Below are positions 8,361 through 40,304 of a stretch of 41,779 nt of DNA, piece by piece. The notes beneath the pieces were generated by a model, which saw nothing but the letters and a program-made list of their open reading frames with translations, was not told where the DNA came from and did not search any database. This DNA is from Tannerellaceae bacterium (lineage in GTDB: Bacteria; Bacteroidota; Bacteroidia; Bacteroidales; Tannerellaceae). The translations under genes and the position numbers were made by a program. The stretch's first letter is position 1. The number at the start of each line of letters is the position of its first letter. Location: NCBI GenBank assembly GCA_031271045.1, contig JAISWO010000011.1, positions 1-41,779 on the forward strand, read 5' to 3'.

Positions 8361-8402
8361 AAATGAAGCACGCATACGCTTAAATGAGGCACGTATACAC
8401 TT
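8361..8402. repeat. Two adjacent 21-bp repeats
   Basis: AAATGAAGCACGCATACGCTT (8361-8381) is followed at once by a copy with 3 of 21 bases changed (8382-8402). GCACGC at 8368 can also pair with GCGTGC at 8410-8415. The repeat lies between the beta-helix lipoprotein stop (8419) and the tetR promoter, and is the smallest of the window's tandem arrays. Confidence 0.7.
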
Positions 8403-8418
8403 TTACATAGCGTGCATC

Positions 8419-9654
8419 TTATTTAACGCTTTGCTGCATGGCGCCGGCGATGGCGGGAGGAGTCTTTAGCGGAAGAGTTTGGCAGGGATGGGCATATTCG
8501 GCGGCGGGGATCAGGGTGAAGCCTTCCCGTTTTAATCGGGTGGACAAATAAGTATCCATCTCCGGTTCTGTTTTACCTTTCAGCGATTCAAACAGTTCTG
8601 CCGAGGGAAGATAGTTTGCGTTCAGATCGCCTTTCCTGTACTTCTGATTGCCTTTGTCGACCGACAAAAGATTGGCGGCGGGCAGGGCGATGTTGTCCGA
8701 CAAGAGGTTGTTCAGCATCACGACGCCCTGGTTCGGGAGGCGCGAGGAGGGAATAAAGAGCGGGTTGGTGGTAGCTTTGCTGTTCAGGATCGTATTATGG
8801 CTCAGGTATAAGGCGTTTTCTTTCCATTGGGTATTGCTTTCTTCGCCGAAGGCGATGATCGCCGTATTGGGGCTTTGTTCGGATTGCTGGATAATGTTCC
8901 CGACAACGATATGCGTTCCGCCATCGGGGAGGTCCAGTTCATAACTTGCATTATGGGTGTTATTGTTTTCGTTGCTGATCCGGTTGTTCATGATCAGGCT
9001 GAAGCGGGCGCGGCATTTGACTAAATGTCCTTCCCTGGCATGGTGCGAATAGGAGGCCGTCATCCGGAAGGTGTCGATCCGTCCGACATAAATATTGTGC
9101 GACATCCCGTCGCCATTGCCCATATATCCAAATTCCGTATTCCTGACAATCAGGACGCCGCCGGAGTTGGCCGTTAAGATGCCACATTCGCTGTGCAGGA
9201 ATTTGCAGTTTTCCACCGTCAGGCGGCCTTTGACGAAGCGTATCCCGGCTCCGTTCCGGTCGGGGACGGTTACGTTGGTGAACGTAAATCCTTCTACTTT
9301 TACGTTCCCGCCGTTGATCTCCCAGATGGCTTTCCCTTCCCACGATTTGCCGCTAGCGTTGAGGATGACTTCGCCGCCTACGGCGCGCAGGTAGAGCTCA
9401 TTCTGCCTCCATACCGTCACATCGCCCCGGTAGGTGCCGGCATCCACTTCAATCAGCGTGCTGTCCGTTGCGACGAGCGATGCTTCGCGGATGGTTTTAA
9501 ACGCTTTATCCGGACCGACTTTCAGGGTATCGTTGCAGACAATTTCACGGTTCCTTTCTGCCGTCGCGGGGTCGCCGTCGATGGGCAGTAATTCTTCGCC
9601 TGTGCAGGCGGCAAGCATGACAAGTGGCATAAAAAACAGAACTTTTAGTTTCAT
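8419..9654 (-). CDS. Right-handed beta-helix surface lipoprotein
   Basis: A 411-residue lipoprotein starting at ATG 9654. The signal MKLKVLFFMPLVMLAAC gives a lipobox LAAC, and AGAAGG lies just before the ATG. The longer in-frame start at 9687 would overlap the -7 box and is unlikely. The mature part has pectate-lyase-like repeats: TIREASLVATDSTLIEVDAGTY at the N-cap, then many short strands with asparagine ladders (ENCKFLHSECGILTANS, VRNTEFGYMGNGDGMSHNIYVG, GNIIQQSEQ). This is typical of right-handed parallel beta-helix (PbH1) proteins, often polysaccharide lyases or carbohydrate-binding surface proteins. No catalytic residues can be assigned confidently. It diverges from the ferric-reductase-like gene. 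Confidence 0.8.
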   Translation of the reverse strand: MKLKVLFFMPLVMLAACTGEELLPIDGDPATAERNREIVCNDTLKVGPDKAFKTIREASLVATDSTLIEVDAGTYRGDVTVWRQNELYLRAVGGEVILNASGKSWEGKAIWEINGGNVKVEGFTFTNVTVPDRNGAGIRFVKGRLTVENCKFLHSECGILTANSGGVLIVRNTEFGYMGNGDGMSHNIYVGRIDTFRMTASYSHHAREGHLVKCRARFSLIMNNRISNENNNTHNASYELDLPDGGTHIVVGNIIQQSEQSPNTAIIAFGEESNTQWKENALYLSHNTILNSKATTNPLFIPSSRLPNQGVVMLNNLLSDNIALPAANLLSVDKGNQKYRKGDLNANYLPSAELFESLKGKTEPEMDTYLSTRLKREGFTLIPAAEYAHPCQTLPLKTPPAIAGAMQQSVK

Positions 9655-9684
9655 CCTTCTTTTGTGTTTATTTATAATTTGCCG

Positions 9685-9692
9685 CAAATGTA
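9685..9692 (-). promoter_or_regulatory. -7 box of the beta-helix lipoprotein gene
   Basis: TACATTTG on the minus strand, 31 nt before ATG 9654, matches the TAnnTTTG consensus. No good -33 box is seen. It supports the shorter start. Confidence 0.6.
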
Positions 9693-9724
9693 ATAAAAAC
9701 CCCTTGCCTCTCTTAATGGACGGC

Positions 9725-9750
9725 AGGTATTTTCTTTGCCGAAAATACCT
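9725..9750. promoter_or_regulatory. Palindrome in the divergent control region
   Basis: AGGTATTTTC and GAAAATACCT form perfect 10-bp inverted arms around TTTGCC. An outer GGCAGG (9722-9727) / CCTGCC (9765-9770) pair, followed by CGTTTTTC, could form a second structure. The site lies between two divergent promoters, so it is a candidate binding site for a shared regulator or an RNA hairpin. Confidence 0.55.
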
Positions 9751-9762
9751 AAGGATAGGGAT

Positions 9763-9792
9763 TGCCTGCCCGTTTTTCTTGGCGCAACTTTG
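9763..9792 (+). promoter_or_regulatory. Probable promoter of the ferric-reductase-like gene
   Basis: TTG at 9763-9765 is followed after 19 nt by CAACTTTG (9785-9792), one mismatch from TAnnTTTG. The ATG follows at 9816. Confidence 0.45.
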
Positions 9793-9815
9793 CGGGCAAT
9801 AAATGAATTAACAAA

Positions 9816-10757: not shown

Positions 10758-10785
10758 GATCTGCGGTCGTCCTGACAAAATAAGT

Positions 10786-10818
10786 AAAGGGGTTGTCTTG
10801 AAGCAAGACAACCCCTTT
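10786..10818. terminator. Bidirectional terminator between convergent genes
   Basis: Perfect 15-bp stem AAAGGGGTTGTCTTG / CAAGACAACCCCTTT with an AAG loop, between genes that converge (stops at 10757 and 10845). It is flanked by A-rich and T-rich sequence. Confidence 0.85.
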
Positions 10819-10844
10819 CTGTTTCACGTCCTTCCGGAGGGCGG

Positions 10845-13800
10845 TCAGAGATTGAAGCCGGAGAGTTCGAGGGTTGGCTTTTCGCCGCGGGTGTCGCGGT
10901 TGGAAAGGCGCATGGTGACGGTCTTTTCTTCGCCGGGCATCAGCGAGATGTAGTTGTCGCTGAAGAAGACCGGCAGGATGCGTCCGGCTGTACGGTCACC
11001 GACGACATTCAGCCGCAGCATCAGGGCCGGCGTCGCGGTGTTGTTCTTCAGCGTAGCGCTCAGGAGCCAGTTTTCGCCTTCGCGAACGAGGGAGGTTTGC
11101 GTGTCGAGCGTTACTTTGGGCAGTTGACGGAGCGATTGATAGTTGCCGTCTTCCTTGCCTCGCCAGTAGAAGTTGTCGGAGATGACCTGGCCGTTCTCCG
11201 TCAGCGTCAGCTTGATGAAGTAGGTGTCGGAGAGGGTCTCCGGATATTCGAGGTTGAAGGCCTTCACCGTGGCGTCTTCGGGGACGTCGAGGGTCGTTTC
11301 CTTTTCCCATTGCACGGAGCCGTCCTGGTTGATCAGTTGGGCGCGGGCGACCAGTCCGGTGCGATTCCAGGCGTGATAGTTGACGACTTCGATCCAGTCT
11401 TCCTTCTTGAAGTCGTAGACCGGGTTCCATTGTATATGGATCGGTTCGGAGGCTTTTTTGCATCCGAAGTAGGCGCCGGTGGGATCGAAATAATAGTCGT
11501 AGGTCTGCCACACCATCGAGGGCCAGGCCGGATGACTCATCCAGAGCAACATGCCGCGGCGGTATTCACTGCGTCCTTCGAAGATGGCGCGGTAGCCGTT
11601 GTAATTGATCCACTGCGCCCATTCGGCGAACTGTTGGGCGCCGGAGGGTTTGCCGAAGGCTTTTTCTATGATTTCGTTGAAGGAATTGGCCGACTGTGCC
11701 GAGGCGCCGGAGGTTCCTCCCAGGGTATAATCGTGGAGTCCGTAGATGCTGTTGGGCGTCTCCTTGGTGCTTACCGGCTCGACGGCGTCGGGGCCGAAGG
11801 CCAGGAGCAGGCTTTCGTAGTTCATCACGGCGGGCATACCGCGTTCGCTGTGGAACTTATTGTTGCCGTAGAGGAGGAAATAGTCCCTGGGCGGCAAGGC
11901 GCGGTAAGGGCCTCCTCCGCTGACGATGCCCATGGCCGAGTTGGAGATGTAATGGATGCCGGGATGGAGTTCGGGCACGAAGCGTCGGATGGCGTCGTCG
12001 AGGGCCGGGGGCGGGTTGCCTTCGTTGCGGCCTACGTAGATACCGATGGAGGGATGGTTGCGGATCCGTTTGACGAAGTCTTCGCCGTTGGCGATGAAGA
12101 GGTCGTTATCGTAGGGGTTCGGTCCGTCGACGGGGTTGGCCAGCCAGAAGTCCTGCCATACCATGATGCCGTGGCGGTCGCAGGCTTCGAAGAACTCTTC
12201 GTCGCCGATTTGTCCGACCCAGTTGCGTATCATGGTGAAGTTCATATCGGCGTGGTAGGCGACGGCGATGTCGTATTCGCGTCCGCGATAGTTGAGGTTA
12301 GATTCGCCGAAGCCCCAGTTGCCGCCGAAGCCGATGAAGCGTCGTCCGTTGACGTAGAGGCTGAGCGTCTGGTTGTCTTCGTCGAAGGTCATTTGCCGGA
12401 CGCCGGACCGGAAGGAGGTACGGTCGGAGGTTGCTCCGTTGATGTCGAAGCTCAGCGTCACGTCGTAGAGATAGGGTTCGCCGTATCCTTTGGGCCACCA
12501 GAGGCGGGGGTTCTGCAATTGCAGCGCCGGCGTGGTGGAGGGATCCAGGCGGACGATTTTCGTTTCGGAGGCGGCCAGGCTCACGGGCTGTTCGAAGGCG
12601 GCTTCGCCGTAGGAGCCCCGCAAGGTGCCGTCGACGGCGGCGTCCGTTTGGTTGTGGAGCGTCACTTCGACAAAGAGGCTGGCGGAGGTGGTGTCCGGCA
12701 GCGGCAATTCGGCGCGTATGAAGGGATCTTCGATGGCGACGGCGCCGGTACGGGTGAGGAAGACGTCGTTCCAGATGCCGATGTTACGCCCGCGGATGGT
12801 TGGGATCCAGTCCCACCCGACGGAGGCGTGGAAGGTAGGATTGTCGGCGCCCAGGATGCCGCCGTTCTGGTCGGTGCTGAAGGCGGTTTGTTCTTTGATG
12901 GCGCCGGGGTGTTCGTTCTTGATCAGTTCGACGGCGATGGCGTTGGTTTTGCCGGCGGCGACCAAACGGGTAACGTCAAACCTGCCGCGCATGAAGGCGC
13001 CGTCGATGCGTCCGGCTTTTTGTCCGTTGACGTAGACGTTGGCCTTCCAGTTGATACCGTCGAAATGGAGGAAGAGGTTACCGTCCTTGAATCCGCCGGG
13101 CAGGGTAAACTCGTTGCGATACCAGAAGTTGGAGTTGAAGAACGATTCGGAGACCTGCAACTGGTTGTCGGCATAGTTGGGGTCGGGTATGGCGCCGATC
13201 CGCAGGTAGCTGGTCAGTACGGTTCCGGGGACGGTGGCGATGATCCAGTCTTGGGCTTCGAATCCGGGCTGCGAGATGTCTTCGCCGGAGGCGTTCACCT
13301 GGGATGCACGTTGCAGCGTCCAGGCGCCTCCGTTCAGGGTCAGTCGATTTTCTTCGGCCTTGGGCGCCGGTTTCGGGCGGGGCGAGAGGCCTCCTTTGCC
13401 CCAAACTTCGAGTTCCGACAGGACGTAGGGTTGGTTGTTTTCGGCTTCCTTCATCAGGATGCGGAGGTATTGTCCGCTTGCGGCCTGGCTGAGGGTGATG
13501 GCGTCGGTTTTTTCGCTTCCGCCGGGCAGGGGGGCCAGGTCGTTCCATGTCCGGGCATCGCCGGATACCTGTATGGTTCCGGCGAGGGCCTTATTGATCC
13601 AGTGCAGGTTGATCTTGTCGAACGAGGCCTTCGCTCCGAAGTCGACGTAGACCCATTCTTCGCCCGTTCCGGCGCTTTGCCATGCGCTGTTGAAGTAGCG
13701 CGAGGGGAGGATGGTGAGCAGTTCTTCGCCCTGGTAGAAATCCCAGTCGCTGAAGGTCCAGGTTTTGGCGCAGGGCATTTTCATCGCGATCTTATAGTAA

Positions 13801-14513
13801 GGATAGCGCAGGGTTTGATCCAGCTCGAAGACCTGGTTGATCGTGGTGGACGGTTCCGGCGGGGAGAAGCTGAAGGTGAAGGAGGGGCGGGGTGCGTCGG
13901 GGTCGACCGGCGGCATGCGGAAGCCTCCGAATCCCCGGAAGCGGGCCGGCGGTTCGACGCCGATGCGTCCGGGGCCTTTTTCCTGTCCGACGACGTCCCA
14001 GTTGAGGCCGTCATTCGATCCGTAGGCGACGATTTCGTATCCGCGCGGCTTGGCGGCGTCGTAGGTGACGCTTCCGCGGAGGACGATCTTATCCACTTCG
14101 ATGGCGGAGTGCCGGATGGCCAATTGCAGGAACACTTCGTCGCCGGTGGTACGGTAGCGGGAGTCGCTTTTGCCGTCGAAGAGCCATTCGCGTTCGTTTT
14201 TCGCCAGGTCGCCGGCCTGGGTCGATACCTGGATGGTGGCCGGTTGGGCGGTGGCGACGATCCCGTCGGTTGCCAGCTGGGCCGTCAGGTTGTAGTCATA
14301 GCTCGACGAATGGTAGGCGGTGCGGAGCCGGGCGATGTTCCGGTAGGAATTGTCGGGCGCCAGTTGCGGCGCAAAATCTTCTGCCGGATTTCCGGGATAG
14401 ACACCCAGGGGGCGCGAATAGCCGGAGGATTCTCCCGGAGGGTTACATCCCGGGAGCAGGAAGACGAGCGAGGCGCCTCCCAGGAGGAAAGAAAGAATTT
14501 GTTTCGTACTCAT
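10845..14513 (-). CDS. Glycoside hydrolase family 2 lipoprotein with discoidin-like N-terminal domains
   Basis: About 1222 residues from ATG 14513. The signal MSTKQILSFLLGGASLVF ends in a lipobox LLPGC; the longer in-frame start at 14561 would run through the -7 box at 14548 and is rejected. Two F5/8 type C (discoidin/CBM32-like) segments cover roughly residues 60-390 (YEIVAYGSNDGLNWDVVG and GTIQVSGDARTWNDLAPLPG). A GH2 sugar-binding domain, an Ig-like domain and the TIM barrel follow. The acid/base Glu is about residue 831 in GRNEGNPP, and the nucleophile about residue 890 in FHSERGMP. The motif pattern is closest to GH2 beta-mannosidase / exo-beta-glucosaminidase types. It probably trims glycans at the cell surface or in the periplasm. 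No SusC/SusD pair is adjacent. Confidence 0.88.
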   Translation of the reverse strand: MSTKQILSFLLGGASLVFLLPGCNPPGESSGYSRPLGVYPGNPAEDFAPQLAPDNSYRNIARLRTAYHSSSYDYNLTAQLATDGIVATAQPATIQVSTQAGDLAKNEREWLFDGKSDSRYRTTGDEVFLQLAIRHSAIEVDKIVLRGSVTYDAAKPRGYEIVAYGSNDGLNWDVVGQEKGPGRIGVEPPARFRGFGGFRMPPVDPDAPRPSFTFSFSPPEPSTTINQVFELDQTLRYPYYKIAMKMPCAKTWTFSDWDFYQGEELLTILPSRYFNSAWQSAGTGEEWVYVDFGAKASFDKINLHWINKALAGTIQVSGDARTWNDLAPLPGGSEKTDAITLSQAASGQYLRILMKEAENNQPYVLSELEVWGKGGLSPRPKPAPKAEENRLTLNGGAWTLQRASQVNASGEDISQPGFEAQDWIIATVPGTVLTSYLRIGAIPDPNYADNQLQVSESFFNSNFWYRNEFTLPGGFKDGNLFLHFDGINWKANVYVNGQKAGRIDGAFMRGRFDVTRLVAAGKTNAIAVELIKNEHPGAIKEQTAFSTDQNGGILGADNPTFHASVGWDWIPTIRGRNIGIWNDVFLTRTGAVAIEDPFIRAELPLPDTTSASLFVEVTLHNQTDAAVDGTLRGSYGEAAFEQPVSLAASETKIVRLDPSTTPALQLQNPRLWWPKGYGEPYLYDVTLSFDINGATSDRTSFRSGVRQMTFDEDNQTLSLYVNGRRFIGFGGNWGFGESNLNYRGREYDIAVAYHADMNFTMIRNWVGQIGDEEFFEACDRHGIMVWQDFWLANPVDGPNPYDNDLFIANGEDFVKRIRNHPSIGIYVGRNEGNPPPALDDAIRRFVPELHPGIHYISNSAMGIVSGGGPYRALPPRDYFLLYGNNKFHSERGMPAVMNYESLLLAFGPDAVEPVSTKETPNSIYGLHDYTLGGTSGASAQSANSFNEIIEKAFGKPSGAQQFAEWAQWINYNGYRAIFEGRSEYRRGMLLWMSHPAWPSMVWQTYDYYFDPTGAYFGCKKASEPIHIQWNPVYDFKKEDWIEVVNYHAWNRTGLVARAQLINQDGSVQWEKETTLDVPEDATVKAFNLEYPETLSDTYFIKLTLTENGQVISDNFYWRGKEDGNYQSLRQLPKVTLDTQTSLVREGENWLLSATLKNNTATPALMLRLNVVGDRTAGRILPVFFSDNYISLMPGEEKTVTMRLSNRDTRGEKPTLELSGFNL

Positions 14514-14547
14514 AAAAAAAAGGGTATTAGAATTGATTTTTACGAAG

Positions 14548-14555
14548 CAAAGATA
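14548..14555 (-). promoter_or_regulatory. -7 box of the GH2 gene
   Basis: TATCTTTG on the minus strand is a perfect TAnnTTTG, 34 nt before ATG 14513. It fixes the start choice. No convincing -33 TTTG. Confidence 0.7.
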
Positions 14556-14662
14556 CGTCATATAAATGGATTATCACCCTTTGCCTGCCCAATGCGCGCC
14601 GTTTTCTTTTCCCCCGCCCTGCGATCGCCGACGGAGGGTCAAAAATTGTTGGCAACTCAAGC

Positions 14663-15080
14663 ACTGTTGTGCTTTTTCGGCTGACAACTGTCAGGGACCC
14701 CGGAACTGTTGTGCTTTTCCGGCCGACAACTGTCGGGGACCCTGGAACTGTTGTGCCTGGTCGGCCGACAACTGCGTGGAAGCCGGAACTCTTGTGCCTG
14801 GTCGGCCGGCAATTGTTGGGGACCCTGGCACTGTTCTGCCAGGTCTGCCGCCAATTGTTGGGGACCCTGGCACTGTTCTGCCAGGTCGGCCGCCAACTGT
14901 TGGGGAACAAAGCAGTGTTATGCCGGGTCTGCTGCCAACTGTTGGGGTACGAAGCAGTGTTGTGCCGGGTTGCCGGCAATTGTGGGGGGGGCGAAGCACT
15001 GTTGTGCCGGGTCTGCCGGCAGTTGTGGGGGGGCGAAGCACTGTTGTGCCGGGTCTGCCGGCAGTTATTGGGGGATAAGC
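14663..15080. repeat. Tandem array of ten 42-bp units with internal palindromes
   Basis: Ten units begin at 14663, 14705, 14747, 14788, 14830, 14872, 14914, 14956, 14998 and 15040. All are 42 bp except units 3 and 10, which are 41 bp. Each has the pattern ACTGTTGTGCC-GGTCGGCC-GACAACTGT-GGGGACC, with drift along the array. Unit 1 contains the palindrome CTGACAACTGTCAG and unit 2 CCGACAACTGTCGG, a paired change that keeps symmetry. Unit 4 keeps it with G-T pairs. The array sits between the divergent GH2 and small-lipoprotein genes. It lies in no recognisable gene; because 42 is a multiple of 3 it leaves frames open on both strands by chance. Confidence 0.9.
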
Positions 15081-18566: not shown

Positions 18567-18671
18567 AACGGAGGCGTCTGCGACGCTTGCGTATTGGTGG
18601 GAAAACATTACTTTTGACCGTGAATTTTTCATTGTTTTTTTACTTACTTTCTTATTTAAAAATTATTTGTC

Positions 18672-21575
18672 ATGAGAAAATTTTATTCTTTGTTATTGGC
18701 GTCACTGGCGATCCTGCTGACCGCGTCCTGCGGAACAGGCTCGAAGTACGCGTATGAAACCGTCCCCGGCGATCCGCTGCAAACGCGCATCTACACCCTT
18801 GACAACGGACTGAAAGTGTATCTGTCGGTCAATGCCGACAAACCGCGCATCCAGACATTCGTCGGCGTACGGGTGGGAGGCAAAAACGACCCCGCCGAAA
18901 CAACCGGACTGTCTCATTATTTTGAACACCTGATGTTCAAAGGAACTCCCAGCTTCGGCTCCTCCGACTATGAAGCCGAGAAACCGCTGCTGGACCAAAT
19001 CGAAGCCTTGTTTGAAACCTACCGCCAAACAACCGACGAAGCAGAACGCAAAGCTATTTACGCCCAAATAGACAGCGTCTCGCAGGAGGCTTCCAAAATC
19101 GCCATCCCCAACGAGTACGACAAACTGATGTCGGCCATCGGTTCGCAGGGCACCAACGCCTTCACCTCCTACGACGTGACGGCCTATACGGAAGACATCC
19201 CCTCGAACGAAATCGAAAACTGGGCCGCTATACAGGCCGACCGCTTCGCCAATCCCGTGATCCGACTCTTCCACACCGAACTCGAAACGGTGTACGAAGA
19301 ATACAACATGAGCCTCACGCGCGACAGCCGGAAAGTCAACGACGCCCTGTTTACCGCCCTCTTCCCCCACCACCCCTACGGCACGCAAACCATCCTCGGC
19401 TCCCAGGAACACCTCAAGAACCCGTCGATTATCAACATCAAGCGGCACTTCGAGACCTATTATGTACCGAATAATATGACCGTCTGTATGGTGGGAGACC
19501 TGAATCCCGACCAGACAATCCAGGTCATAGATAAATACTTCGGCTCCCTTGTCCCCAAAGAACTGCCGGCGCTGCAAACCTCGCCCGAACAGCCCATCAC
19601 GGCGCCCATCGTCAAGGAAGTCGTCGGACTTGAAGCCGAAAACGTCTCCATCGCCTACCGCCTGCCCGGCGCCAATACACAAGACGCCGCCGTCGCCGAG
19701 TTTATCGACTACCTGCTGACCAACGGCAAAGCGGGCCTGATCGACCTCAACCTCGTGCAGAAGCAAAAAGTGCTCCGGGCCTCCAGCGGAGTCTCCTCCC
19801 TGTCCGACTACAGCGTGTTCTTGCTGACAGGTACCCCCAAAGAAGGGCAAACGCTGGATGAAGTGAAAGGCCTCCTGCTCGAACAGGTCGACCTGCTCAA
19901 GAAAGGCGAGTTCGACGACAAACTGCTCGAAGCCGTCATTAATAACTTCAAGCTCGAACGTTACTTCCAGCAGCAGGAATACCAGTACGCCGCCCAAATC
20001 ATGCTCTTCGCCTTCGTCAACCAAACCGAATGGAAAGACGAAGTGGAGAGAATAAACTTCCAGTCGAAGCTGACCAAGCAAGACGTGATCGACTTCTGTA
20101 ATAAATATTACAACGACAATTACGCCATCGTCTATAAACGCCAGGGCATACCCGACAATAAGAAAATAGACAAGCCGACCATCACGCCCATCTCGGCCAA
20201 CCGCGACAACGAAAGCGCCTTCCTGGCCTCCTTCCGCACACGCGAAGTGAAACCCATCGAACCGGTCTTCCTTGATTACTCCAAAGACCTCTCGAAGCTG
20301 TCCGTCAAGCAGAATCTCCCGGTGTTGTACAAACAGAATACCACCAACCCGATCTTCTCGCTCTACTACGTATTCGAAATGGGGAACAATCACAACAAAG
20401 CCCTGGGCACGGCCTTCACCTACCTGAACTACTTAGGCACATCGACCCGGACGGCCGAAGAAATCAAAAGCGAACTCTATCAATTAGCCTGCACCTTCGG
20501 CGTACAGGCAACCAATGAACGGGTATACGTCTACATCAGCGGACTGAGCGACAACTTCGACAAAGCGCTCGCTATCCTCGAAGAACGCTTGGCCGATGCA
20601 AAAGCCGACGTGGATACGTACAACAACCTGGTGGCCGATATACTGAAAAGCCGCGCCAATGACAAATTGAACCAATCGGTCAACTTCAGCGTGCTGCAAA
20701 ACTATGCCCTCTGGGGGCCCAAGTCGCCGACGACAAACATCCTCTCGGAAGCCGAACTCAAGGCCATGAACCCCGACGACCTGGTGAATGTCACCAAAGG
20801 CCTCCGGAACTTTGAGCATACCATTCTGTATTACGGCCCGCTGACGGAAGCGCAAATCACCGAAACGCTCAACCGGAACCATGCCGTGGCAGACGCCCTC
20901 CAGCCCGTTCCGGAGCCGACTCCGTTCGTCGAACAGGAAACAACGGGAAACAAAGTGCTGCTCGCTCATTACGACGCCAAGCAGATCTACATGGGCATGC
21001 TCCACAAAGGAGGCGGCTTCGACAAATCAATCGAACCCCAGCGTACAATGTACAACACCTACTTCGGCGGCAGTATGAACAGCATCGTCTTCCAGGAAAT
21101 GCGCGAAGCCCGCGGATTGGCTTACACCGCCAGGGCCAACTATCAACGCCCCGGCAAGCCCGACCGCGCGTATTTACTGAACACCTTCATCGCTACGCAG
21201 AACGATAAGCTGAAAGATGCCACCGACGCCTTCAACAGCATCCTGAACGATATGCCGGAATCGGAAAAAGCCTTCAGCCTCGCCAAGGAAAACATCCTGA
21301 CGGATCTGCGCACCGAACGTATCCTGCGCGACGACATCCTCTGGGACTACCTCGAAGCTAAAGAATTTGGATACGAAACCGACGCCCGCAAGGAACTGTA
21401 TGAAAAAGTGCCGGGCTTCACCCTGGACGACGTAAAAGCCTTCCAGCAACAGTACGTCAAGGATAAACCCTACACCTACTGCATCCTGGGAGATACAAAG
21501 GACTTAGACATGAAAACCCTGCGAGAAATCGGCCCGATAACGATCCTGAAACAGGAAGAGATTTTTGGGTATTGA
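18672..21575 (+). CDS. M16-family zinc metallopeptidase, lipoprotein, two-domain (967 aa)
   Basis: The N-terminus MRKFYSLLLASLAILLTASC has a lipobox (TASC), so it is probably lipid-anchored in the envelope. The inverted zinc motif is intact: His 82, Glu 85 and His 86 in GLSHYFEHLMFKGT, with the third ligand Glu in the ELETVYEEYN segment near residue 205. An insertion of about 40 residues (roughly 105-150) separates them. The second half repeats the fold without the HxxEH motif (EMREARGLAYTARANYQRPG), as in pitrilysin-type M16 proteins. It degrades peptides, with unknown targets. It is followed after 11 nt by a TTG-started NtrC-type gene, so the protease and the two-component pair may share a transcript. 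Confidence 0.93.
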   Translation: MRKFYSLLLASLAILLTASCGTGSKYAYETVPGDPLQTRIYTLDNGLKVYLSVNADKPRIQTFVGVRVGGKNDPAETTGLSHYFEHLMFKGTPSFGSSDYEAEKPLLDQIEALFETYRQTTDEAERKAIYAQIDSVSQEASKIAIPNEYDKLMSAIGSQGTNAFTSYDVTAYTEDIPSNEIENWAAIQADRFANPVIRLFHTELETVYEEYNMSLTRDSRKVNDALFTALFPHHPYGTQTILGSQEHLKNPSIINIKRHFETYYVPNNMTVCMVGDLNPDQTIQVIDKYFGSLVPKELPALQTSPEQPITAPIVKEVVGLEAENVSIAYRLPGANTQDAAVAEFIDYLLTNGKAGLIDLNLVQKQKVLRASSGVSSLSDYSVFLLTGTPKEGQTLDEVKGLLLEQVDLLKKGEFDDKLLEAVINNFKLERYFQQQEYQYAAQIMLFAFVNQTEWKDEVERINFQSKLTKQDVIDFCNKYYNDNYAIVYKRQGIPDNKKIDKPTITPISANRDNESAFLASFRTREVKPIEPVFLDYSKDLSKLSVKQNLPVLYKQNTTNPIFSLYYVFEMGNNHNKALGTAFTYLNYLGTSTRTAEEIKSELYQLACTFGVQATNERVYVYISGLSDNFDKALAILEERLADAKADVDTYNNLVADILKSRANDKLNQSVNFSVLQNYALWGPKSPTTNILSEAELKAMNPDDLVNVTKGLRNFEHTILYYGPLTEAQITETLNRNHAVADALQPVPEPTPFVEQETTGNKVLLAHYDAKQIYMGMLHKGGGFDKSIEPQRTMYNTYFGGSMNSIVFQEMREARGLAYTARANYQRPGKPDRAYLLNTFIATQNDKLKDATDAFNSILNDMPESEKAFSLAKENILTDLRTERILRDDILWDYLEAKEFGYETDARKELYEKVPGFTLDDVKAFQQQYVKDKPYTYCILGDTKDLDMKTLREIGPITILKQEEIFGY

Positions 21576-24264: not shown

Positions 24265-24422
24265 CGCCTTTGTGTAACGTCGTTGCACAACACCTTTGTG
24301 CAACATTACACAACGCCTTTGTGCAGCCTTGCACAACACCTTTGTGCAGCGTTGCACAACGCCTTTGTGCAACCTTACACAACGCCTTTGTGCAACGTTA
24401 CACAATGCCTTTGTGCAGCGTT
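24265..24422. repeat. Tandem array of six 23-bp hairpin units
   Basis: Six exact-length 23-bp units (24285-24422) with consensus GCACAACGCCTTTGTGCAACGTT are preceded by one degraded unit. Each unit contains GCACAA-N5-TTGTGC, so each can form a 6-bp hairpin. Substitutions alternate between ACACAA and GCACAA and between CAACG, CAGCG, CAACC and CAGCC. The array lies between the histidine kinase stop and ftsX and lacks spacers, so it is not a CRISPR. Confidence 0.9.
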
Positions 24423-24595
24423 ACTAACCGTCTCCTCTCCTCAATGGCTTTTATTATTCCGCTTAGCCGGCAGGTTAAAGAAACGAAAACAGGATACTTT
24501 CTCGCAAATTATTTGTTCTTTTGCAGGCAATTGGGGAGAATTCCGGATCGGTTAGTCTCCCGATTTGCTTTAACAATAAATTTTGTATACGTCCG

Positions 24596-25474
24596 ATGGC
24601 AGAAAGTAGAAAAATAAGCGTCGTTTCTTTCTTTAATTCCCGCGTTACTTCGGTAATCAGTATTGCGCTGGTACTATTCCTGCTGGGACTGATCTGCCTG
24701 ATCGCTTTGCTGGGGAGCAGACTGTCCGATTATGTGAAAGAAAACATCGCATTCTCCGTCGTATTGAAAGACGATGTGAGGGAAGCCGACATCAAAAGAA
24801 TCCAAAAGAACCTGGACGACCTGCCCTTTATCAAATCAACGGAATATATCTCCAAAGAACAGGCAGCAAAGGAATTAGAAAACGAATTAGGAGAAAACCC
24901 GGAAACTTTCCTCGGCTTCAACCCCTTGCAGGCGTCGATCGAAGTGAAGCTCCATTCCGAATATGCCAACCCAGACAGTTTGCAGGTCATTGAAAAAAAA
25001 ATAAAAACCTATACCACCGTATCCGAATTGCTCTACAGGAAAGATATGATGCAGGTTGTAAACGACAACATGAGACGGCTCAGCCTGGTTTTGCTCACGC
25101 TGGCCTTGATGTTGATGGCTATCTCGTTCGTCCTTATCAGCAATACGATCCGTTTACTGATTTATTCAAAACGCTTCCTGATTCACACCATGCAATTGGT
25201 CGGCGCTACGGCCGGCTTCATCCGGCGACCGTTTATCCGGCATAATATTGTAAGTGGCCTTTTTGCTTCCATCCTGGCGATATTGATGCTCATCAGCGCA
25301 TTGTACTATCTGCAAAGCGAATTGGCAGGATTTGTGCAGATGCTTGATACGGGAATGTTGCTGCTCGTCTTCCTGTCTGTGTTTATCATGGGCATCGGAC
25401 TCTCGGTTGTCGCTACGGTATTGGCGGTCAACAGATATTTGCATATGGAAGTAGATAAATTGTATTACATATAA
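24596..25474 (+). CDS. ftsX: Cell-division protein FtsX
   Basis: A 292-residue protein if started at ATG 24596 (MAESRKISVVSFFNSR); the longer frame from 24521 is not FtsX-like before this point. One N-terminal membrane helix (ISIALVLFLLGLICLIALLG) is followed by an extracytoplasmic domain with ENIAFSVVLKDDV and FLGFNPLQASIEVKL, then three C-terminal helices with the coupling segment HTMQLVGATAGFIRRPF. FtsX works with the ATPase FtsE in the division ring to activate peptidoglycan hydrolases. No ftsE is adjacent, as is usual in Bacteroidetes. It heads a conserved run with DUF3098, uppP, truB, queA and folK. Confidence 0.9.
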   Translation: MAESRKISVVSFFNSRVTSVISIALVLFLLGLICLIALLGSRLSDYVKENIAFSVVLKDDVREADIKRIQKNLDDLPFIKSTEYISKEQAAKELENELGENPETFLGFNPLQASIEVKLHSEYANPDSLQVIEKKIKTYTTVSELLYRKDMMQVVNDNMRRLSLVLLTLALMLMAISFVLISNTIRLLIYSKRFLIHTMQLVGATAGFIRRPFIRHNIVSGLFASILAILMLISALYYLQSELAGFVQMLDTGMLLLVFLSVFIMGIGLSVVATVLAVNRYLHMEVDKLYYI

Positions 25475-28309: not shown

Positions 28310-28310
28310 T

Positions 28311-30926: not shown

Positions 30927-32921
30927 TTATTTGAGCGGGATATATTGCACGAAGGCTTCGATGGCTTCGTAGGCGGCGAGGCCTAATTGGCGGTAGAGGT
31001 CGGCGGTGGCGCGGTTGCGGTCTTCGGCTCGTTGCCAGAAGAGGCGTTCGTCGTCGCCGAGGAAGGGTGCGCTTTCGGCCTGCGACTGGTGTCGGAGGAT
31101 GGCGTTGCGTTTGTTACGGAGTTCTTCGGGACTGATGGGTACGGCCATCTCGATGTGATCCATTTCCCATTCGGCCCAGGCTCCGCGATACATCCAGATG
31201 CGGCATTGTTGCATCCAGGGTTGTTCTTTGACTTCGTCGATGGCGGCCAGGGCGGCGTCGAGGCAGACTTTGTGTGTTCCGTGGGGGTCGGCCAGGTCGC
31301 CGGCTACGAAGATTTGGTGGGGTTGTATTTCTTCGAGCAGATGGCGGACGATGGCGACGTCATCGGGTCCGAGATCGTTCTTTTTGACCATACCGGTTTC
31401 GTAGAAGGGGAGGTCGAGGAAGCGTATGTGGCTATCGTCGGTGATGCCGGAGTAGCGGGCGGCGGCTCGGGCTTCTTCGCGGCGGATGGTTCCTTTGATG
31501 AAGAGGACGTCGTTGGTTTCTTTTTCTCCTTTTGCTTTTGTTTTTTCGTATCGGAGGTATTGTATGATGTCTTCGGCTTTGTGTCGGAGGGCGGGGTCGG
31601 CGGGTGCGTAGTGGTTGGATACGTCGCGGAGGTATTCGCAGTAGCGGATGACGTCTTCGTCGCCGACGGCGATATTGCCGGAGGTTTGGTAGGCGACGTA
31701 GACGTCGTGTTGTTGGCTACAGAGTCGGTGGAAGGTTCCTCCCATGGAGATGACGTCGTCGTCGGGGTGTGGGCTGAAGATGATGACCTTTTTGGGATAG
31801 GGCATGGCTCGTTCGGGTCGGTTGGCGTCGTCGGCATTGGGTTTACCTCCGGGCCATCCGGTGATGGTGTGCTGGATGTCGTTGAAGATTTTGATGTTGA
31901 CATTGTAGGCGGAGCCGTAGAGTGCGAGGAGTTCCCCGAGGCCGTTCTCACTGTAGTCTTTGTTGGTGAGTTTGAGGATGGGTTTGCCGGTGAGGCGACA
32001 GAGCCAGACGATGGCGCGGCGGATGAGTTGGTTGTCCCACTCGCAGTGTGTGACGAGCCAGGGGTGGCTGATGCGGGTGAGCTGGTAGGCGGCCGAGAGG
32101 TCGATGACGACTTGGGCGTTGCCGGCGCTTTGGAGGTAGGAGGCGGGGATGCTGTCGCTTTCTTTGCCTTCGACGGCTTGGCTGATGATGTTGGCTTTGC
32201 TTTCGCCCCAGGCCATGAGGATGGTTTGCCGGGCGTGGAGGAGGGTGGAGACTCCGGCGGTGATGACTCCGGCGGGTACGTTCTCGATGGACTTGAATAT
32301 ACGGGCGGCTTCTTTGCGCGAATCGTTGTCGAGCAGTACGAGGCGGGTGGTGGTGTTGATGCCGGCTCCGGGGCCATTGAAACTGATGTTACCGGCGTGT
32401 CCGATGCCGAGCAGGGCGCAGTCGAGGCCTCCGGCGTCGCGGATTTGTTGTTCGTATTGGAGGCAGAAATCGTAGATGTTCTCTTTGGGCATGAATCCGT
32501 CGGGGGAATAGATGTTGTTGGGGTGTATGTCGACGTGATCGAGGAAGTAATCTTTCAGGTAGGCGAGGTTACTGAAGGCGACGGAGTCGAGGGGGTAGAA
32601 CTCGTAGAGGTTGAAGACGACGACGTTACGGAAGCTGAGTCCTTCTTCGCGGTGTTGCCGGATGAGTTCTTTGAATACGCTTTGAGGGGTTCGTCCTCCG
32701 GGGAGGGCGAGGACGAAGTTTTGTCCGGTGGTTTGTTTGTCTTTGATCTGCCGGGCGATGTTGCGGGCGATGGCGCAGGATCCTTCGTCGGCGGATTCAT
32801 AGATGGAGGTGGGGATCTTCTCAAAGCGCGTGAGGATGGATTGCTCGTAGGCATTTTCCGGTCGGTAATACCGTGCGGGTATTCGTGTGAGTGAAATTTG
32901 TGAACTTAAATCGGTTTTCAT
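30927..32921 (-). CDS. NagB-like/PIG-L fusion protein, NagB half lacking catalytic residues
   Basis: A 664-residue fusion. The N-terminal half (about 1-290) is glucosamine-6-phosphate deaminase/isomerase-like with the phosphate loop ALPGGRTPQSVF, but residues equivalent to E. coli NagB Asp72, Asp141, His143 and Glu148 are Tyr 106 (FNLYEF), Ala 176, Asn 178 (GHAGNIS) and Gly 183. The linker (about 290-375) contains TGKPILKLTNKDYSENGL. The C-terminal half is a PIG-L/LmbE deacetylase-like domain with the zinc motif FSPHPDDDVISMGGT (His 385, Asp 388) and a later DPHGTH. Databases commonly call such proteins glucosamine-6-phosphate deaminase; the visible residues argue against that activity. Deacetylation of an amino-sugar conjugate, with the NagB half as a binding or regulatory module, is my inference. 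Confidence 0.88.
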   Translation of the reverse strand: MKTDLSSQISLTRIPARYYRPENAYEQSILTRFEKIPTSIYESADEGSCAIARNIARQIKDKQTTGQNFVLALPGGRTPQSVFKELIRQHREEGLSFRNVVVFNLYEFYPLDSVAFSNLAYLKDYFLDHVDIHPNNIYSPDGFMPKENIYDFCLQYEQQIRDAGGLDCALLGIGHAGNISFNGPGAGINTTTRLVLLDNDSRKEAARIFKSIENVPAGVITAGVSTLLHARQTILMAWGESKANIISQAVEGKESDSIPASYLQSAGNAQVVIDLSAAYQLTRISHPWLVTHCEWDNQLIRRAIVWLCRLTGKPILKLTNKDYSENGLGELLALYGSAYNVNIKIFNDIQHTITGWPGGKPNADDANRPERAMPYPKKVIIFSPHPDDDVISMGGTFHRLCSQQHDVYVAYQTSGNIAVGDEDVIRYCEYLRDVSNHYAPADPALRHKAEDIIQYLRYEKTKAKGEKETNDVLFIKGTIRREEARAAARYSGITDDSHIRFLDLPFYETGMVKKNDLGPDDVAIVRHLLEEIQPHQIFVAGDLADPHGTHKVCLDAALAAIDEVKEQPWMQQCRIWMYRGAWAEWEMDHIEMAVPISPEELRNKRNAILRHQSQAESAPFLGDDERLFWQRAEDRNRATADLYRQLGLAAYEAIEAFVQYIPLK

Positions 32922-33035: not shown

Positions 33036-33377
33036 TGGGACATAATCTGTTATTCCTGGGACATGCAGTGACTTTGGGGCGATATGCAGTGACTTTGGAG
33101 CGATATGCAGTGACTTTCGAGCGATATGCAGTGACTTTTGAGCGATATGCAGTGACTTTGGGGCGATATGCAGTGACTTTCGAGCGATATGCAGTGACTT
33201 TTGAGCGATATGCAGTGACTTGGGAGCGATATGCAGTGACTTGGGAACGATATGCAGTGACTTGGGAACGATATGCAGTGACTTGGGAACGATATGCAGT
33301 GACTTGGGAGCGATATGCAGTGACTTTGGAGCGATATGCAGTGACTTTGAGGCGATATGCAGTGACTTTTTAGCTCA
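33036..33377. repeat. Tandem array of fifteen 21-bp units (ATGCAGTGACTT type)
   Basis: ATGCAGTGACTT recurs every 21 bp exactly, from 33063 to 33357 (15 copies). One more degraded unit starts at 33036, recognised by TGGGACAT repeating 21 bp later. Only the five or so bases after GACTT vary (GGGGC, GGAGC, CGAGC, TGAGC, GGAAC). Three consecutive central copies share GGGAAC, which shows local unit duplication. It is upstream of the NagB-PIG-L promoter. Confidence 0.95.
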
Positions 33378-33521
33378 CTTGTTTGTTCTTTAAGCTCACT
33401 TGTCTGTTCTTTAAGCTCACTTGTCTGTTCTTTAAGGGCACTTGTCTGTTCTTTAAGGGCACTTGTCTGTTCCTTAAGGGCACTTGACTGTTCTTTGGGC
33501 CCACTTGACTGTTCTTTGAGC
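33375..33521. repeat. Second tandem array of seven 21-bp units (CACTTGTCTGTTC type)
   Basis: Seven units of exactly 21 bp begin at 33375, 33396, 33417, 33438, 33459, 33480 and 33501. The consensus is TCACTTGTCTGTTCTTTAAGC, drifting to GCACTTGACTG and CCACTTGACTG on the right. The array abuts the first 21-bp array with no gap but has an unrelated sequence. On the minus strand the combined arrays leave an open frame of seven-residue repeats, which I regard as chance. Confidence 0.95.
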
Positions 33522-33535
33522 GGGATATTTTGATG

Positions 33536-33543
33536 CAAATGTA
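33536..33543 (-). promoter_or_regulatory. Isolated -7 box pointing into the 21-bp arrays
   Basis: TACATTTG on the minus strand is a perfect TAnnTTTG just upstream of the second array. No -33 box is evident and no gene starts nearby. It could produce a transcript through the repeats toward the NagB-PIG-L operon. Confidence 0.35.
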
Positions 33544-33686
33544 GAAATAAATAGTCTATGGTGCCGGAATTTTGAAGGGGAAAAAAGGATTTGTGATAAA
33601 TAGAGGTGATAAACGGTTTCTTCGGGCGTTCTATAAGGTAGAGGGAGTAAGTTGCAGAGAGTGAATTTGTTCAATGAAGGAAATGG

Positions 33687-33752
33687 TCAAGGAAGGGTTG
33701 ATGGTATCGGACGATCGTTGATATTCAACCCTTCCTTGAGAGAAGATTTTTT
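33687..33752 (+). terminator. Hairpin with plus-strand T-run downstream of the arrays
   Basis: TCAAGGAAGGGTTGA (33687-33701) pairs perfectly with TCAACCCTTCCTTGA (33725-33739), giving a 15-bp stem with a 23-nt loop. GAGAAGATTTTTT follows on the plus strand. It also lies just downstream of the minus-strand barrel gene (stop at 33785), so it may serve that gene, but the T-run points the other way. Confidence 0.65.
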
Positions 33753-33784
33753 ATCGCAAATGGTTGCGTTGCGCGACTGTTGAT

Positions 33785-35563: not shown

Positions 35564-35573
35564 CGTTCTAATG

Positions 35574-38588: not shown

Positions 38589-38612
38589 TCCTTGTTTTAA
38601 TAATATATGATA

Positions 38613-38620
38613 CAAATGTA
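38613..38620 (-). promoter_or_regulatory. -7 box of the TPR/barrel operon
   Basis: TACATTTG on the minus strand, 24 nt before ATG 38588, matches TAnnTTTG. It lies within 25 nt of the Nudix gene stop at 38635. Confidence 0.65.
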
Positions 38621-38634
38621 CGCGATAAAACTCA

Positions 38635-39189
38635 TTAATCGCATCCGGCGTTTCCGAAAAATGTATTTTGGCGCTCTTTGTAAATGCGAACGCCTTTTTG
38701 GATGGAATGTAAGCCGAAGTCTTCCGGGTGCAGGCCGGAGGGGGGGAGGATAAGGATCCCGGAGGCGTCGTCGGCTGCCCGGAGGCCGTCGAAATGGGGG
38801 ACGCGACAGTCGTAGAACAGGTCCAGCGTGTGGACGTTGAAGCCGCCGTAGGGGTAGATGTTGGGCAGGGAAAAGAGGTAGCGGACGCCTTCGAGACAAA
38901 GGCCGGTTTCTTCCTGCACTTCCCGGCGAACGGCTTCTTCGGCTGTTTCGTGCATATCGACAAAGCCGCCGGGGAGGTCCAGGGAGCCGCGGGCGGGGTC
39001 TTTGGCGCGCCTGACGAGCAGGAGTTCTCCGCGGGCGTTTTGGATGAAGCAGGCGACCGCAGCGGAGGGATTGAAGTAATATATGAAGCCGCAGGCGCTG
39101 CATTGCTTGGCCTTTTCGTTGCGGACGGCGAACGGGGCGGCGCCGCAAACCGGGCAATGCAGGAACTGCGCTAAGGGATGGAGATTCAT
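38635..39189 (-). CDS. Nudix hydrolase with N-terminal zinc ribbon
   Basis: A 184-residue protein. Four cysteines form a zinc ribbon (Cys 12, 15, 30 and 33 in HCPVCG and QCSACGF). The Nudix box is complete at residues 75-97: G-x5-E-x7-REVQEETGL, starting GGFVDMHE. The layout is like NudC-type NAD(H) pyrophosphatases but shorter, so the substrate could be NADH, ADP-ribose or another nucleoside diphosphate. Its start overlaps the upstream DUF6261-like gene stop by 4 nt, suggesting coupled translation. The C-terminal part (HSIQKGVRIYKERQ) is variable. Confidence 0.92.
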   Translation of the reverse strand: MNLHPLAQFLHCPVCGAAPFAVRNEKAKQCSACGFIYYFNPSAAVACFIQNARGELLLVRRAKDPARGSLDLPGGFVDMHETAEEAVRREVQEETGLCLEGVRYLFSLPNIYPYGGFNVHTLDLFYDCRVPHFDGLRAADDASGILILPPSGLHPEDFGLHSIQKGVRIYKERQNTFFGNAGCD

Positions 39190-39905
39190 TCGGCGAGGGC
39201 GTCGGGGTTAGCGGGGCTGTCGCTGTCGTCGCCGGGGTGGTTTGCCAAAACGCGGCTGTGGCGGCGGCGGAGGTAGAGGAGCCTGTATTGCCTGAGGGTG
39301 GCGTTGATGCGGTTGATGATTGCGCCCAGGGTGGCGGCTTTGGCGGTGTTACCGGTTAGTTGGGCGACGATACTGAAGGCTTCGAGCACGCAAAGAAAGT
39401 TGTCAAAGGCCCTGTCCACCCGGGGGCGGATGTGTTTCATGAGACCTTTCATTTCGGCCTCTTTGAGGTTCAGTTCACGTTTGGCATAGAAGGCCTTGAA
39501 CTCTTCGTTGCAGGCTTCGAGTTTATCGACGGCCGTTTGCAGTCCGAGGGCAGCGATGCTGGGAGCGTACTTCGCCAGCCTGAAGTCCTGAACCATATTA
39601 TAGATCAGGGCGCTGGCCTCGACCATCGAGGCGGAGGTTATTTTCTTGAAATTGTCGAGCACGAAGACGAGGCGATGTGCGGCTGTTTTTTCGACCTTGA
39701 GACTGCGTTTATAGCCGTCGTCTTCCTTGCAGAAGAGGTTGTAGAAAATAAGATAGTGGGCTTCCGCTTCGCTAAAGTCGGCTTTATGCTGTTCGAGGGG
39801 TTCGAGGGGTTCGATGATTTCCTCGTACAATTCAAAATGCTCGCTATTGCGCAGATGAACGATAAAGCCTCGAAGTTTGTCAACTTTTCTTACGCTTTGA
39901 TACAT
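39186..39905 (-). CDS. DUF6261-like helical protein of unknown function
   Basis: About 239 residues from ATG 39905 (MYQSVRKVDKLRGFIVHLRN). The in-frame TTG at 39977 is rejected because the promoter -7 box at 39933 and -33 box at 39962 fall inside that extension. The protein is nearly all helical, with the segments LRNSEHFELYEEIIEPL, VFVLDNFKKITSASMVEASALIY and NTAKAATLGAIINRINATLR. I recall similar Bacteroidales proteins as DUF6261, often present in several copies per genome; this needs a profile search. It overlaps the Nudix gene by 4 nt. A 41-bp tandem array lies upstream of its promoter. Confidence 0.7.
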   Translation of the reverse strand: MYQSVRKVDKLRGFIVHLRNSEHFELYEEIIEPLEPLEQHKADFSEAEAHYLIFYNLFCKEDDGYKRSLKVEKTAAHRLVFVLDNFKKITSASMVEASALIYNMVQDFRLAKYAPSIAALGLQTAVDKLEACNEEFKAFYAKRELNLKEAEMKGLMKHIRPRVDRAFDNFLCVLEAFSIVAQLTGNTAKAATLGAIINRINATLRQYRLLYLRRRHSRVLANHPGDDSDSPANPDALAE

Positions 39906-39932
39906 TTGAGCGATTTTCAATGATTTGTCCCA

Positions 39933-39965
39933 CAAATGTACGTCTTTACCGGATAATTTTCCAAA
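39933..39965 (-). promoter_or_regulatory. Promoter of the DUF6261-like/Nudix operon
   Basis: On the minus strand the -33 box TTTG (39962-39965) is followed after 21 nt by TACATTTG (39933-39940), a full Bacteroidetes-type match. The ATG at 39905 follows 27 nt after the box. Confidence 0.7.
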
Positions 39966-40058
39966 TAATTCGTTCAAAACAGTTTCGTGCTATAAAATAT
40001 TATGTATTCTCTCCTTGACTTTCCGGTGGTTTGGAAGGTTATGGTGATTCTTGGGATT

Positions 40059-40304
40059 TTTGTAGCTTTTAAGGAAGAAGGTAGGGATATTTGTTTCCGA
40101 GGTGGCGTTTTGGGGGAAAAGAATAGGTGTTTCTTCTTATAAAGTATCGTTTTGGAGGAAGAAATAAGTGTGTTTTCTTACAAAATGGCATTTGGGAGAA
40201 GAAGATAAATGTTTCTTCTTCTAAAGTATTGTTTTGGAGGAAGAGAGAAGTGTATCTTTTTACAAAGTGACATTTTGAAGAGAGAGATAATTGTTTTTTC
40301 TTCG
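40059..40304. repeat. Tandem array of six 41-bp units
   Basis: Units of exactly 41 bp begin at 40059, 40100, 40141, 40182, 40223 and 40264. The common pattern is AAAGTATCGTTTTGGAGGAA, then GAAATAAGTGTGTTTTCTTAC, with drift at both ends. It lies between the DUF6261-like promoter and the ROK kinase stop; no gene is seen in it. Confidence 0.85.

Follow-up and report, generated by a model that had tools for sequence, protein, structure and literature searches.

Intergenic tandem arrays with units of about two or four helical turns in a Tannerellaceae genome

The window, by which we mean the whole analysed stretch of 41,779 nucleotides from the genome of a gut bacterium of the Tannerellaceae, carries six tandem arrays between its genes (Table 1). 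Tandem arrays were called with TRF, which recovered all six, so the initial annotation was right to list units of 21, 42, 23, 21, 21 and 41 bp as real arrays. The first of them has just two copies and a score of 63. At a score of at least 60, shuffled spacers of the same genome yielded no row. By the gene calls, no array lies within a gene and each has one or more gene starts downstream of it, as had been proposed; distances to gene starts were computed for the five arrays scoring at least 70. A small frame starts near 15216, ahead of the plus-strand gene called at 15455. A promoter-like motif, TAnnTTTG, lies 21 bp past the array at 33368..33522 and is directed into it on the minus strand.

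Table 1. Tandem arrays of the window and their neighbouring genes.
Position	Strand	Unit (bp)	Copies	Remarks	Genes
8361..8402	.	21	2.0	TRF score 63, weak	start of TetR-like gene (7647-8258, -; TetR_N match); end of gene 8419-9618 (-)
14663..15073	.	42	5.8 and 6.8	two overlapping 42-bp TRF rows	between divergent genes: glycoside hydrolase family 2-like (10845-14561, -) and + gene called at 15455
24281..24424	.	23	6.3		172 bp upstream of ftsX (24596-25474, +)
33063..33369	.	21	14.6		upstream of glucosamine-6-phosphate isomerase/PIG-L-like gene (30927-32921, -)
33368..33522	.	21	7.4	unit differs from that of the abutting array 33063..33369	
40106..40303	.	41	4.8	diverged, 68% matches	129 bp upstream of DUF6261 gene (39186-39977, -)

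The array survey covered 756 kb, or 27%, of this genome, which is a draft of 74 contigs and 88.5% complete. All 50 non-coding arrays with a TRF score of at least 80 had units of 21-23, 41-43 or 84 bp; 26 were of 21-23 bp and the other 24 of 41-43 or 84 bp. Thus, the expected peak of unit lengths near 21 and 42 bp is present in the sampled 27%, and simple extrapolation gives about 180 arrays in the whole genome. In the same genus, 21 of 22 arrays obeyed this size rule (stretches sampled from 14 of the other 17 genomes), and so did 43 of 49 arrays from 80 Tannerellaceae loci when multiples were counted (40 of 49 without multiples). The 41-43 bp class is about as common as the 21-23 bp class, and three-turn units are nearly absent: of 123 Tannerellaceae arrays, a single one, with 32-bp units, is of this kind. 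Such regularity might be suspected to come from chance, from a bias of the tool or from the assembly, since draft copy numbers may be wrong. Dinucleotide-shuffled non-coding DNA of the sample (133 kb) gave no TRF row with a score of at least 60, against 58 in the real DNA, shuffles over four other groups gave two rows in total, and the same size classes were found in contigs whose titles give them as isolates, such as L044, L045 and L047. The size rule as a product of chance or artefact is therefore refuted, and an origin of this kind is next to impossible.

The arrays avoid genes, as had been suggested: 50 were non-coding and seven coding-labelled, though 83% of the DNA is coding by the gene calls. 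Promoter-like motifs within 160 bp of arrays pointed outward in 33 cases and inward in 10, an excess that is in part plain geometry because promoters lie near genes. Between convergent genes, arrays were not significantly depleted (3/37 versus 41/231, p = 0.23).

The drift of units within arrays had been taken as a sign of repeated local duplication, and this idea was supported. Over 31 arrays, adjacent copies differed by 0.114 per site, compared with 0.135 over all pairs; the adjacent-copy difference was the lower one in 26 of the 31, as local duplication predicts, and individually significant in nine. The further proposal that each site built an unrelated array from its own seed was only partly right. 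Compared with each other, the window arrays gave no match. However, all three queries searched against the whole genome, which represent four of the six arrays, found family members elsewhere in it. The array at 14663..15073 had four further match rows at three places (C27, C23 and C8), that at 24281..24424 had 12 match rows at eight places, itself included, and relatives of the array at 33063..33369 lay on contigs C29 and C24, where C24 carries a composite similar to the two abutting arrays in the same order. Array-versus-array comparison, with families assigned by hand, gave 33 families among 52 sampled arrays, and 29 of the 52 have array sequence in common with another sampled array, a count that leaves out four arrays linked solely via a neighbouring array or flank. 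None of the three queries, the arrays at 14663..15073 and 24281..24424 included, matched in the 17 congeners; the families are species-specific. A plasmid source was rejected, as a plasmid collection gave no match to positions 33060-33540 of the window.

Dispersal of this kind would be expected if the arrays rode in MITE-like elements, as the BrickBuilt and PgRS repeats of Porphyromonas gingivalis do, or were themselves very small mobile repeats. The array at 18591-18772 of locus L021 has a long inverted repeat in its flanks, and a few families have some flank in common. In most family pairs, however, similarity ends at the array edge, and seven sites of the 23-bp family had 250-bp flanks without mutual similarity at E 0.01. 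The search for flanking repeats scoring at least 12 in 48 arrays gave inverted repeats in two and direct repeats in none, which speaks against a MITE or insertion-sequence origin. PF01797 (Y1 transposase) was matched in six of 18 genomes of the genus; no match of the Y1/RAYT type came from this genome, at 88.5% completeness, or from 11 further ones of the genus, the array-rich G011 and G001 among them. We consider a mobile element decidedly improbable.

The slots of the arrays were also compared with those of relatives. No relative's locus had both flanking genes of a window array side by side, so the comparison was limited to upstream slots; the ftsX slot was compared across related species by alignment. 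Related species carry unrelated units at one slot, and some close relatives have an array where others, at that slot, have none. In Parabacteroides, 22-bp arrays seemed to share a slot, but this was mostly positional coincidence; two of eight species have arrays in the orthologous slot.

Unrelated units at one slot are consistent with a step in the replication, repair or recombination of this lineage that yields tandem duplications of roughly two or four turns, for instance through two nicks on the same face of the helix or through the copying of tiny circles with phase-dependent strain, after which the arrays would be largely neutral. The size classes are independent of sequence, and the rule is already seen in arrays with fewer than 2.8 copies, both in this genome (11/13) and in the genus (12/14, counting 20-22 and 42-43 bp); for such arrays the rule is explained by a ruler acting during duplication as well as, or better than, by a later binding protein. 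A 42-bp unit as a doubled 21-mer is mostly ruled out, since the mean lag-21 autocorrelation excess was just +0.024 over 44 arrays. On the other hand, two-copy arrays may be longer ones that have shrunk, and this explanation predicts neither the near absence of three-turn units nor the conserved dyad arms described below. We know of no enzyme that acts in this way. Rolling-circle copying is said to have a helical length bias; as the preferred mechanism it was demoted, because array ends appeared non-random by eye. Overall, a duplication ruler is unlikely, though it deserves serious consideration. A more specific version, in which a dedicated process of Tannerellaceae measures paired helical turns, makes sequence-blind duplications at two or four but not three turns in variable slots near promoters and copies arrays between spacers, seems improbable.

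As to what the units themselves contain, no universal motif was found over the 33 families; the best hexamer, CTCCAA, occurred in eight of them, against a shuffled 95% limit of six. Invariant blocks and dyad symmetry were tested in 49 arrays of this genome (score of at least 100, periods of 20-43, gene overlap below 0.8). The general test for an invariant block was positive in just five of the 49. The array at 33063..33369 has an invariant 16-bp block and five variable columns (p < 0.001 against 2000 column shuffles). The unit was significantly dyad-symmetric in 18 arrays and not significantly so in 31; in the window, the unit of the array at 24281..24424 is dyad-symmetric, with arms TTGCACAA/TTGTGCAA. 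In the 18 arrays, several of which come from the same families and are therefore not independent, variable columns amounted to 39/294 in the arms and 81/260 outside (rotation P < 0.0002). The arms are thus more conserved than loop and spacer. Among relatives, for which arrays labelled as coding were also taken in if their units had 21 or 42 bp, 27 of 74 arrays were dyad-symmetric, and the arms varied at 119/490 columns versus 82/265 outside (P = 0.008). Sixty runs of a neutral simulation gave an arm/outside ratio of 0.99 (SD 0.22, lowest 0.68); the observed ratio was 0.43 in this genome and 0.78 in the relatives, the latter about within one SD of the simulation.

Dyad symmetry might also reflect a function at the RNA level, with transcribed arrays acting as repeated hairpins or small RNAs. 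The array at 33368..33522 lies just downstream of its promoter-like motif, and 52-nt repeats of Bacillus coagulans are transcribed according to PMC8161180. However, folding needs no unit of two or four turns, and Rfam matched nothing in the window at gathering scores. Two families chosen by pattern (25 and 15 units) had no compensatory changes at variable dyad pairs; as the patterns fixed several positions, the free dyad pairs alone count. Uncompensated changes are expected of two half-sites that are read separately, not of a base-paired stem. An RNA function is accordingly very improbable.

We tentatively favour another explanation, which we regard as possible rather than probable: the arrays may be intergenic minisatellites of a constant-size class which grew by duplication and were retained as same-face sites for a dimeric protein near promoters. 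A short sequence, containing a dyad site in about one third of cases, would undergo in-register duplication with a spacing of roughly two or four turns of the helix. Expansion and drift of the array would follow through slippage or unequal exchange, and its sequence could move into further spacers of this genome, mostly leaving the flanks behind. With a spacing of two or four turns, the bound copies of a dimeric DNA-binding protein would all sit on the same helix face, and this is the most likely reason why the arrays have been retained. They would do so near, and usually upstream of, promoters, where their role might be regulation or local DNA architecture. The size rule, the location, the signs of local duplication, the dispersal and the conservation of arms in dyad units were observed; we infer the candidate dimeric protein, that it binds the arrays, and that expression might be affected. 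Against the same-face arrangement, with 10.5 bp per turn the units of 22 and 23 bp do not make up whole turns, the families have no single motif in common, and most units are not significantly dyad-symmetric.

The arrays described here belong to a class of bacterial repeats that is known, though unexplained, and they are a lineage-rich example of it. Subirana and Messeguer reportedly had this class in print in J Bacteriol in 2020. The initial annotation was mistaken in holding that no named class fits, as constant-size, variable-sequence bacterial tandem repeats are described by Subirana and Messeguer (IJMS 2021, PMC8161180). In that description, the many unrelated or loosely related units of a genome share a single length of 20-21 nt (in many groups 20-23), the repeats are mostly not protein-coding, their families are species-specific, and strains conserve them only in part. 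The length of 20-21 nt is equated there with two helical turns, a polymerising protein or RNA is proposed, and function and origin are given as not known as of 2021. Likewise, our arrays have dominant unit lengths with differing sequences (50/50 arrays; 33 families among 52) and species-specific families (matched in their own genome and in 0/17 congeners). The same paper reports a few 40-41 nt arrays in Bacillus, called related to the 20-21 nt ones, a 52-nt class, and a short sequence common to the repeats in many species but not all. In contrast, units of 41-43 bp are here about as frequent as those of 21-23 bp and mostly not doubled 21-mers, there is no 52-nt class, and no short sequence occurs in all units (best hexamer in 8/33 families).

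REP/BIME palindromic units with RAYT transposases are intergenic and dyad-symmetric. Our arrays resemble them in their intergenic position and in the dyad symmetry of some families, but differ in their strict head-to-tail period, in that most units are not significantly palindromic, and in that this genome had no Y1 transposase match. Porphyromonas gingivalis belongs to the same order as the present genome. Its BrickBuilt (23 nt) and PgRS/MITE464 (41 nt) repeats are close neighbours of our arrays. According to Klein et al. (2015, PMC4596501), they are intergenic dispersed arrays, and BrickBuilt has imperfect copies in variable number as well as leader and tail segments with IS5-related terminal inverted repeats. 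The arrays studied here are likewise intergenic and dispersed, with some units of 23 or 41 nt; unlike BrickBuilt, their flanks are mostly unshared and flanking inverted repeats are rare (2/48). Cyanobacterial small dispersed repeats (Elhai et al. 2008, as described in PMC2884548), some 20 bp in length, tandem, varying in copy number and possibly mobile, are similar in their short tandem units and varied copies.

To these systems, our study adds a common 41-43 bp class, near-zero three-turn units, a size rule that already holds for arrays of two copies, families that are dispersed through this genome yet have no match in 17 congeners, arrays of unrelated sequence in a shared slot of related species, and conserved dyad arms. 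By this evidence, Porphyromonas may owe its 22-, 23- and 41-nt repeats to one wider phenomenon. With about 180 arrays, two size classes, slots that are filled in some close relatives and empty in others, and family members in culture, it becomes testable whether unit length is fixed at the birth of the duplication or by a later binder.

These intergenic tandem arrays obey a genuine and strong size rule, and they belong to a class that is already known. The window is the complete contig C49 of a 2.79-Mb draft genome (74 contigs, 88.5% complete). Among the matches listed for its nagB-like protein, the top four (82-84% identity) all come from MAGs named Tannerellaceae bacterium; the listed matches after these are Parabacteroides and Tannerella records. 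All six arrays described in the window by the initial annotation were found by TRF and confirmed by reading the sequence, and gene calls show that each is non-coding and lies 5' of at least one gene start. The integrase gene, together with the adjoining small HTH gene, suggests the end of a mobile element. The two hairpins, in which a GGACGATCG-like core is common by eye, are likely terminators or a dispersed palindrome.

Arrays and other features in the window and in sampled loci (L-numbers)
Feature	Position	Unit (bp)	Remark
Array	8361-8402	21	Weakest in the window, two copies only
Array	14663-15073	42	
Array	24281-24424	23	Upstream of ftsX (24596-25474, +)
Array	33063-33369	21	Invariant 16-bp block and five variable columns
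Array	33368-33522	21	
Array	40106-40303	41	
Tyrosine-type integrase gene	405-2333		Phage_int_SAM_5, Phage_integrase; adjoins small HTH gene at contig edge
Long hairpin	33687-33739		Close to gene end
Long hairpin	about 40340-40395		Close to gene end
Array	L016:9904-10012		Unit visibly a dimer
Array	L021:18559-18799	23	Source genome, contig C14; between near-perfect inverted repeats of about 27 bp
Coding tandem repeats	L012:85-2689	138	Source genome, contig C7
Array-plus-promoter module	L143:9902-10244		Similar neighbouring segment in all three modules
Array-plus-promoter module	L143:18753-19053		
Array-plus-promoter module	L019:10990-11335		

Forty extra stretches of the source genome (714 kb) were sampled, giving 755,547 bp with the window, or 27% of the genome, and 83% of this DNA was called coding by a simple codon-usage gene caller written for the analysis. 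At a TRF score of at least 80, every one of the 50 non-coding arrays fell in the size classes of 21-23, 41-43 and 84 bp (21 bp, 17 arrays; 22 bp, 1; 23 bp, 8; 41 bp, 6; 42 bp, 16; 43 bp, 1; 84 bp, 1), so that the proposed peaks near 21 and 42 bp hold in the part of the genome sampled. Seven arrays were labelled coding (21, 24, 42, 42, 45, 138 and 138 bp), of which both 42-bp arrays probably lie in false gene calls; the 138-bp coding repeats at L012 are a class apart from the intergenic arrays. Since 83% of the sample is coding, 50 non-coding against seven coding arrays means strong avoidance of genes, as had also been claimed. Lowering the score to 70 gave 54 non-coding arrays, the extra units being 12, 17, 26 and one of 21 bp. 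Dinucleotide-shuffled non-coding DNA of the source genome gave no TRF rows at score 60 versus 58 in the real DNA, and shuffles of the four other groups gave 1, 0, 1 and 0. The 42-bp class is mostly not a doubled 21: the 44 arrays of all groups with units of 41-43 or 84 bp had an autocorrelation excess averaging +0.41 at lag 42 and only +0.024 at lag 21, and the units of a few arrays, such as that at L016, are visibly dimers. The rule is present even below 2.8 copies, in 11 of 13 arrays of the source genome and in 12 of 14 of the genus, where units of 20-22 and 42-43 bp were counted; some of these may be shrunken remnants.

The same sizes prevail in relatives. The genus has 17 other genomes, and the stretches sampled from 14 of them held 22 non-coding arrays, 21 of these in the size classes (exception, 264 bp), with none in four of the 14 congeners (19-31 kb sampled each). 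Both arrays from three further genera of the family conform, as do 43 of 49 at 80 Tannerellaceae loci when 64, 66 and 82 bp are taken as multiples; some of these loci may derive from genomes sampled twice. Units of 22 bp are rare in the source genome and predominant in the short class of the 80 loci. Summed over Tannerellaceae, 112 of 123 arrays have units of strictly 20-24 or 40-44 bp, and one (32 bp) comes close to three turns. Beyond the family density is lower (other families of the order, three arrays in 400 kb; the class, two in 200 kb; other classes, three in 200 kb), and periods are mixed (42 and 22 bp once each); arrays are likewise sparse in three members of the family (two in 300 kb).

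Arrays appear to grow locally and to disperse within a genome. In 26 of 31 arrays neighbouring copies resembled each other more than random pairs did, end copies were somewhat more diverged (p=0.038), and adjacent copies differed by 926 substitutions, with 65 indel bases in arrays relative to their consensus. By recount, 29 of 52 sampled arrays have array sequence in common with another (component count, 33), and the similarity mostly ends at the array edge. No general inverted or direct repeats flank the arrays. A few families share flank, for example two arrays on contig C18 with a common downstream segment of about 150 bp bearing a promoter-like motif. When 18 genomes of the genus were searched with three queries covering four window arrays, all matches came from the source genome (3, 5 and 12 rows, each query's own site among them); the 17 others had none. 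Among seven inspected sites of the 23-bp family, that of the array upstream of ftsX, five carry recognisable family arrays; at one, on C32, a different 23-bp array is followed directly by family units, and at another, on C66, there was no TRF row of at least 15 bp at score 45. The 250-bp flanks of six array-bearing family sites and the window site had no mutual similarity at E 0.01. The inverted repeat at L021 is a possible element end, the clearest case among 48 arrays. The reading frame after the L143 and L019 modules resembles, by eye, the DUF6261 protein encoded beside the 41-bp window array.

At orthologous sites the arrays turn over. Upstream of ftsX, 6 of 30 species, the source included, have an array of 21-23-bp units 129-241 bp before the gene, and in none of 15 species pairs did the units resemble each other more than after shuffling. 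Of a group of three species with about 94% identity across the aligned region, a single one has the array, and in five close species the segment directly 5' of the conserved promoter-side 200 bp was not alignable. At L114 the slot upstream of ftsX contains array units arranged as a large inverted repeat, and the segment in which they lie could not be aligned with that of a relative showing 94% identity. A second slot has arrays in two of eight species, with differing units.

Arrays occupy 44 of 268 spacers of at least 60 bp. TAnnTTTG motifs, which we take to be promoter-like, within 160 bp of arrays point away in 33 cases and in in 10; arrays occur in 3 of 37 spacers between convergent genes, no significant depletion (p=0.23).

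Dyad symmetry beyond shuffles at p 0.05 was found in 17 of 49 units, or 18 with a search permitting shorter loops (about 2.5 expected), counts that are not fully independent because some arrays are from the same families. In the 18 units variable columns were 39/294 in the arms versus 81/260 outside (rotation P<0.0002); in relatives, where 27 of 74 units are dyad-symmetric, they were 119/490 versus 82/265 (P=0.008). Neutral simulation of duplication and mutation gave an arm/outside ratio near 1 (SD 0.22), so the 0.43 of the source genome stands out and the 0.78 of relatives alone does not. In two dyad families, with units chosen by patterns fixing other positions, varying partner positions change without compensation, a pattern that fits protein half-sites better than base-paired stems. 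A run test for invariant blocks over 49 arrays was positive in five only. We tentatively favour retention of the arrays by same-face protein binding following local duplication, a reading somewhat short of even probability; the main rival, that duplication itself acts as the ruler of unit size, seems to us less likely.

The statement that no named class fits does not hold. Constant-size, variable-sequence repeats (20-21 or 52 nt) were described in Bacillus and other bacteria by Subirana and Messeguer (PMC8161180), who, in the portions of the article available, report species-specific families, point out the two-turn length and state that the role is not known. 'Bacteroid' and '42 nt' are absent from its main text (2021), and the literature retrieved, in part, held no specific earlier description in this group besides P. 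gingivalis work. Relative to the 2021 description, our results add that the four-turn class is independent, that three-turn units are almost lacking, that arrays of two copies already obey the rule, that one slot can carry unrelated arrays and that dyad arms are conserved. In P. gingivalis, BrickBuilt (23 nt) and PgRS (41 nt), reported inside MITE-like elements in the accessible part of PMC4596501, have the same unit sizes as arrays of the source genome.
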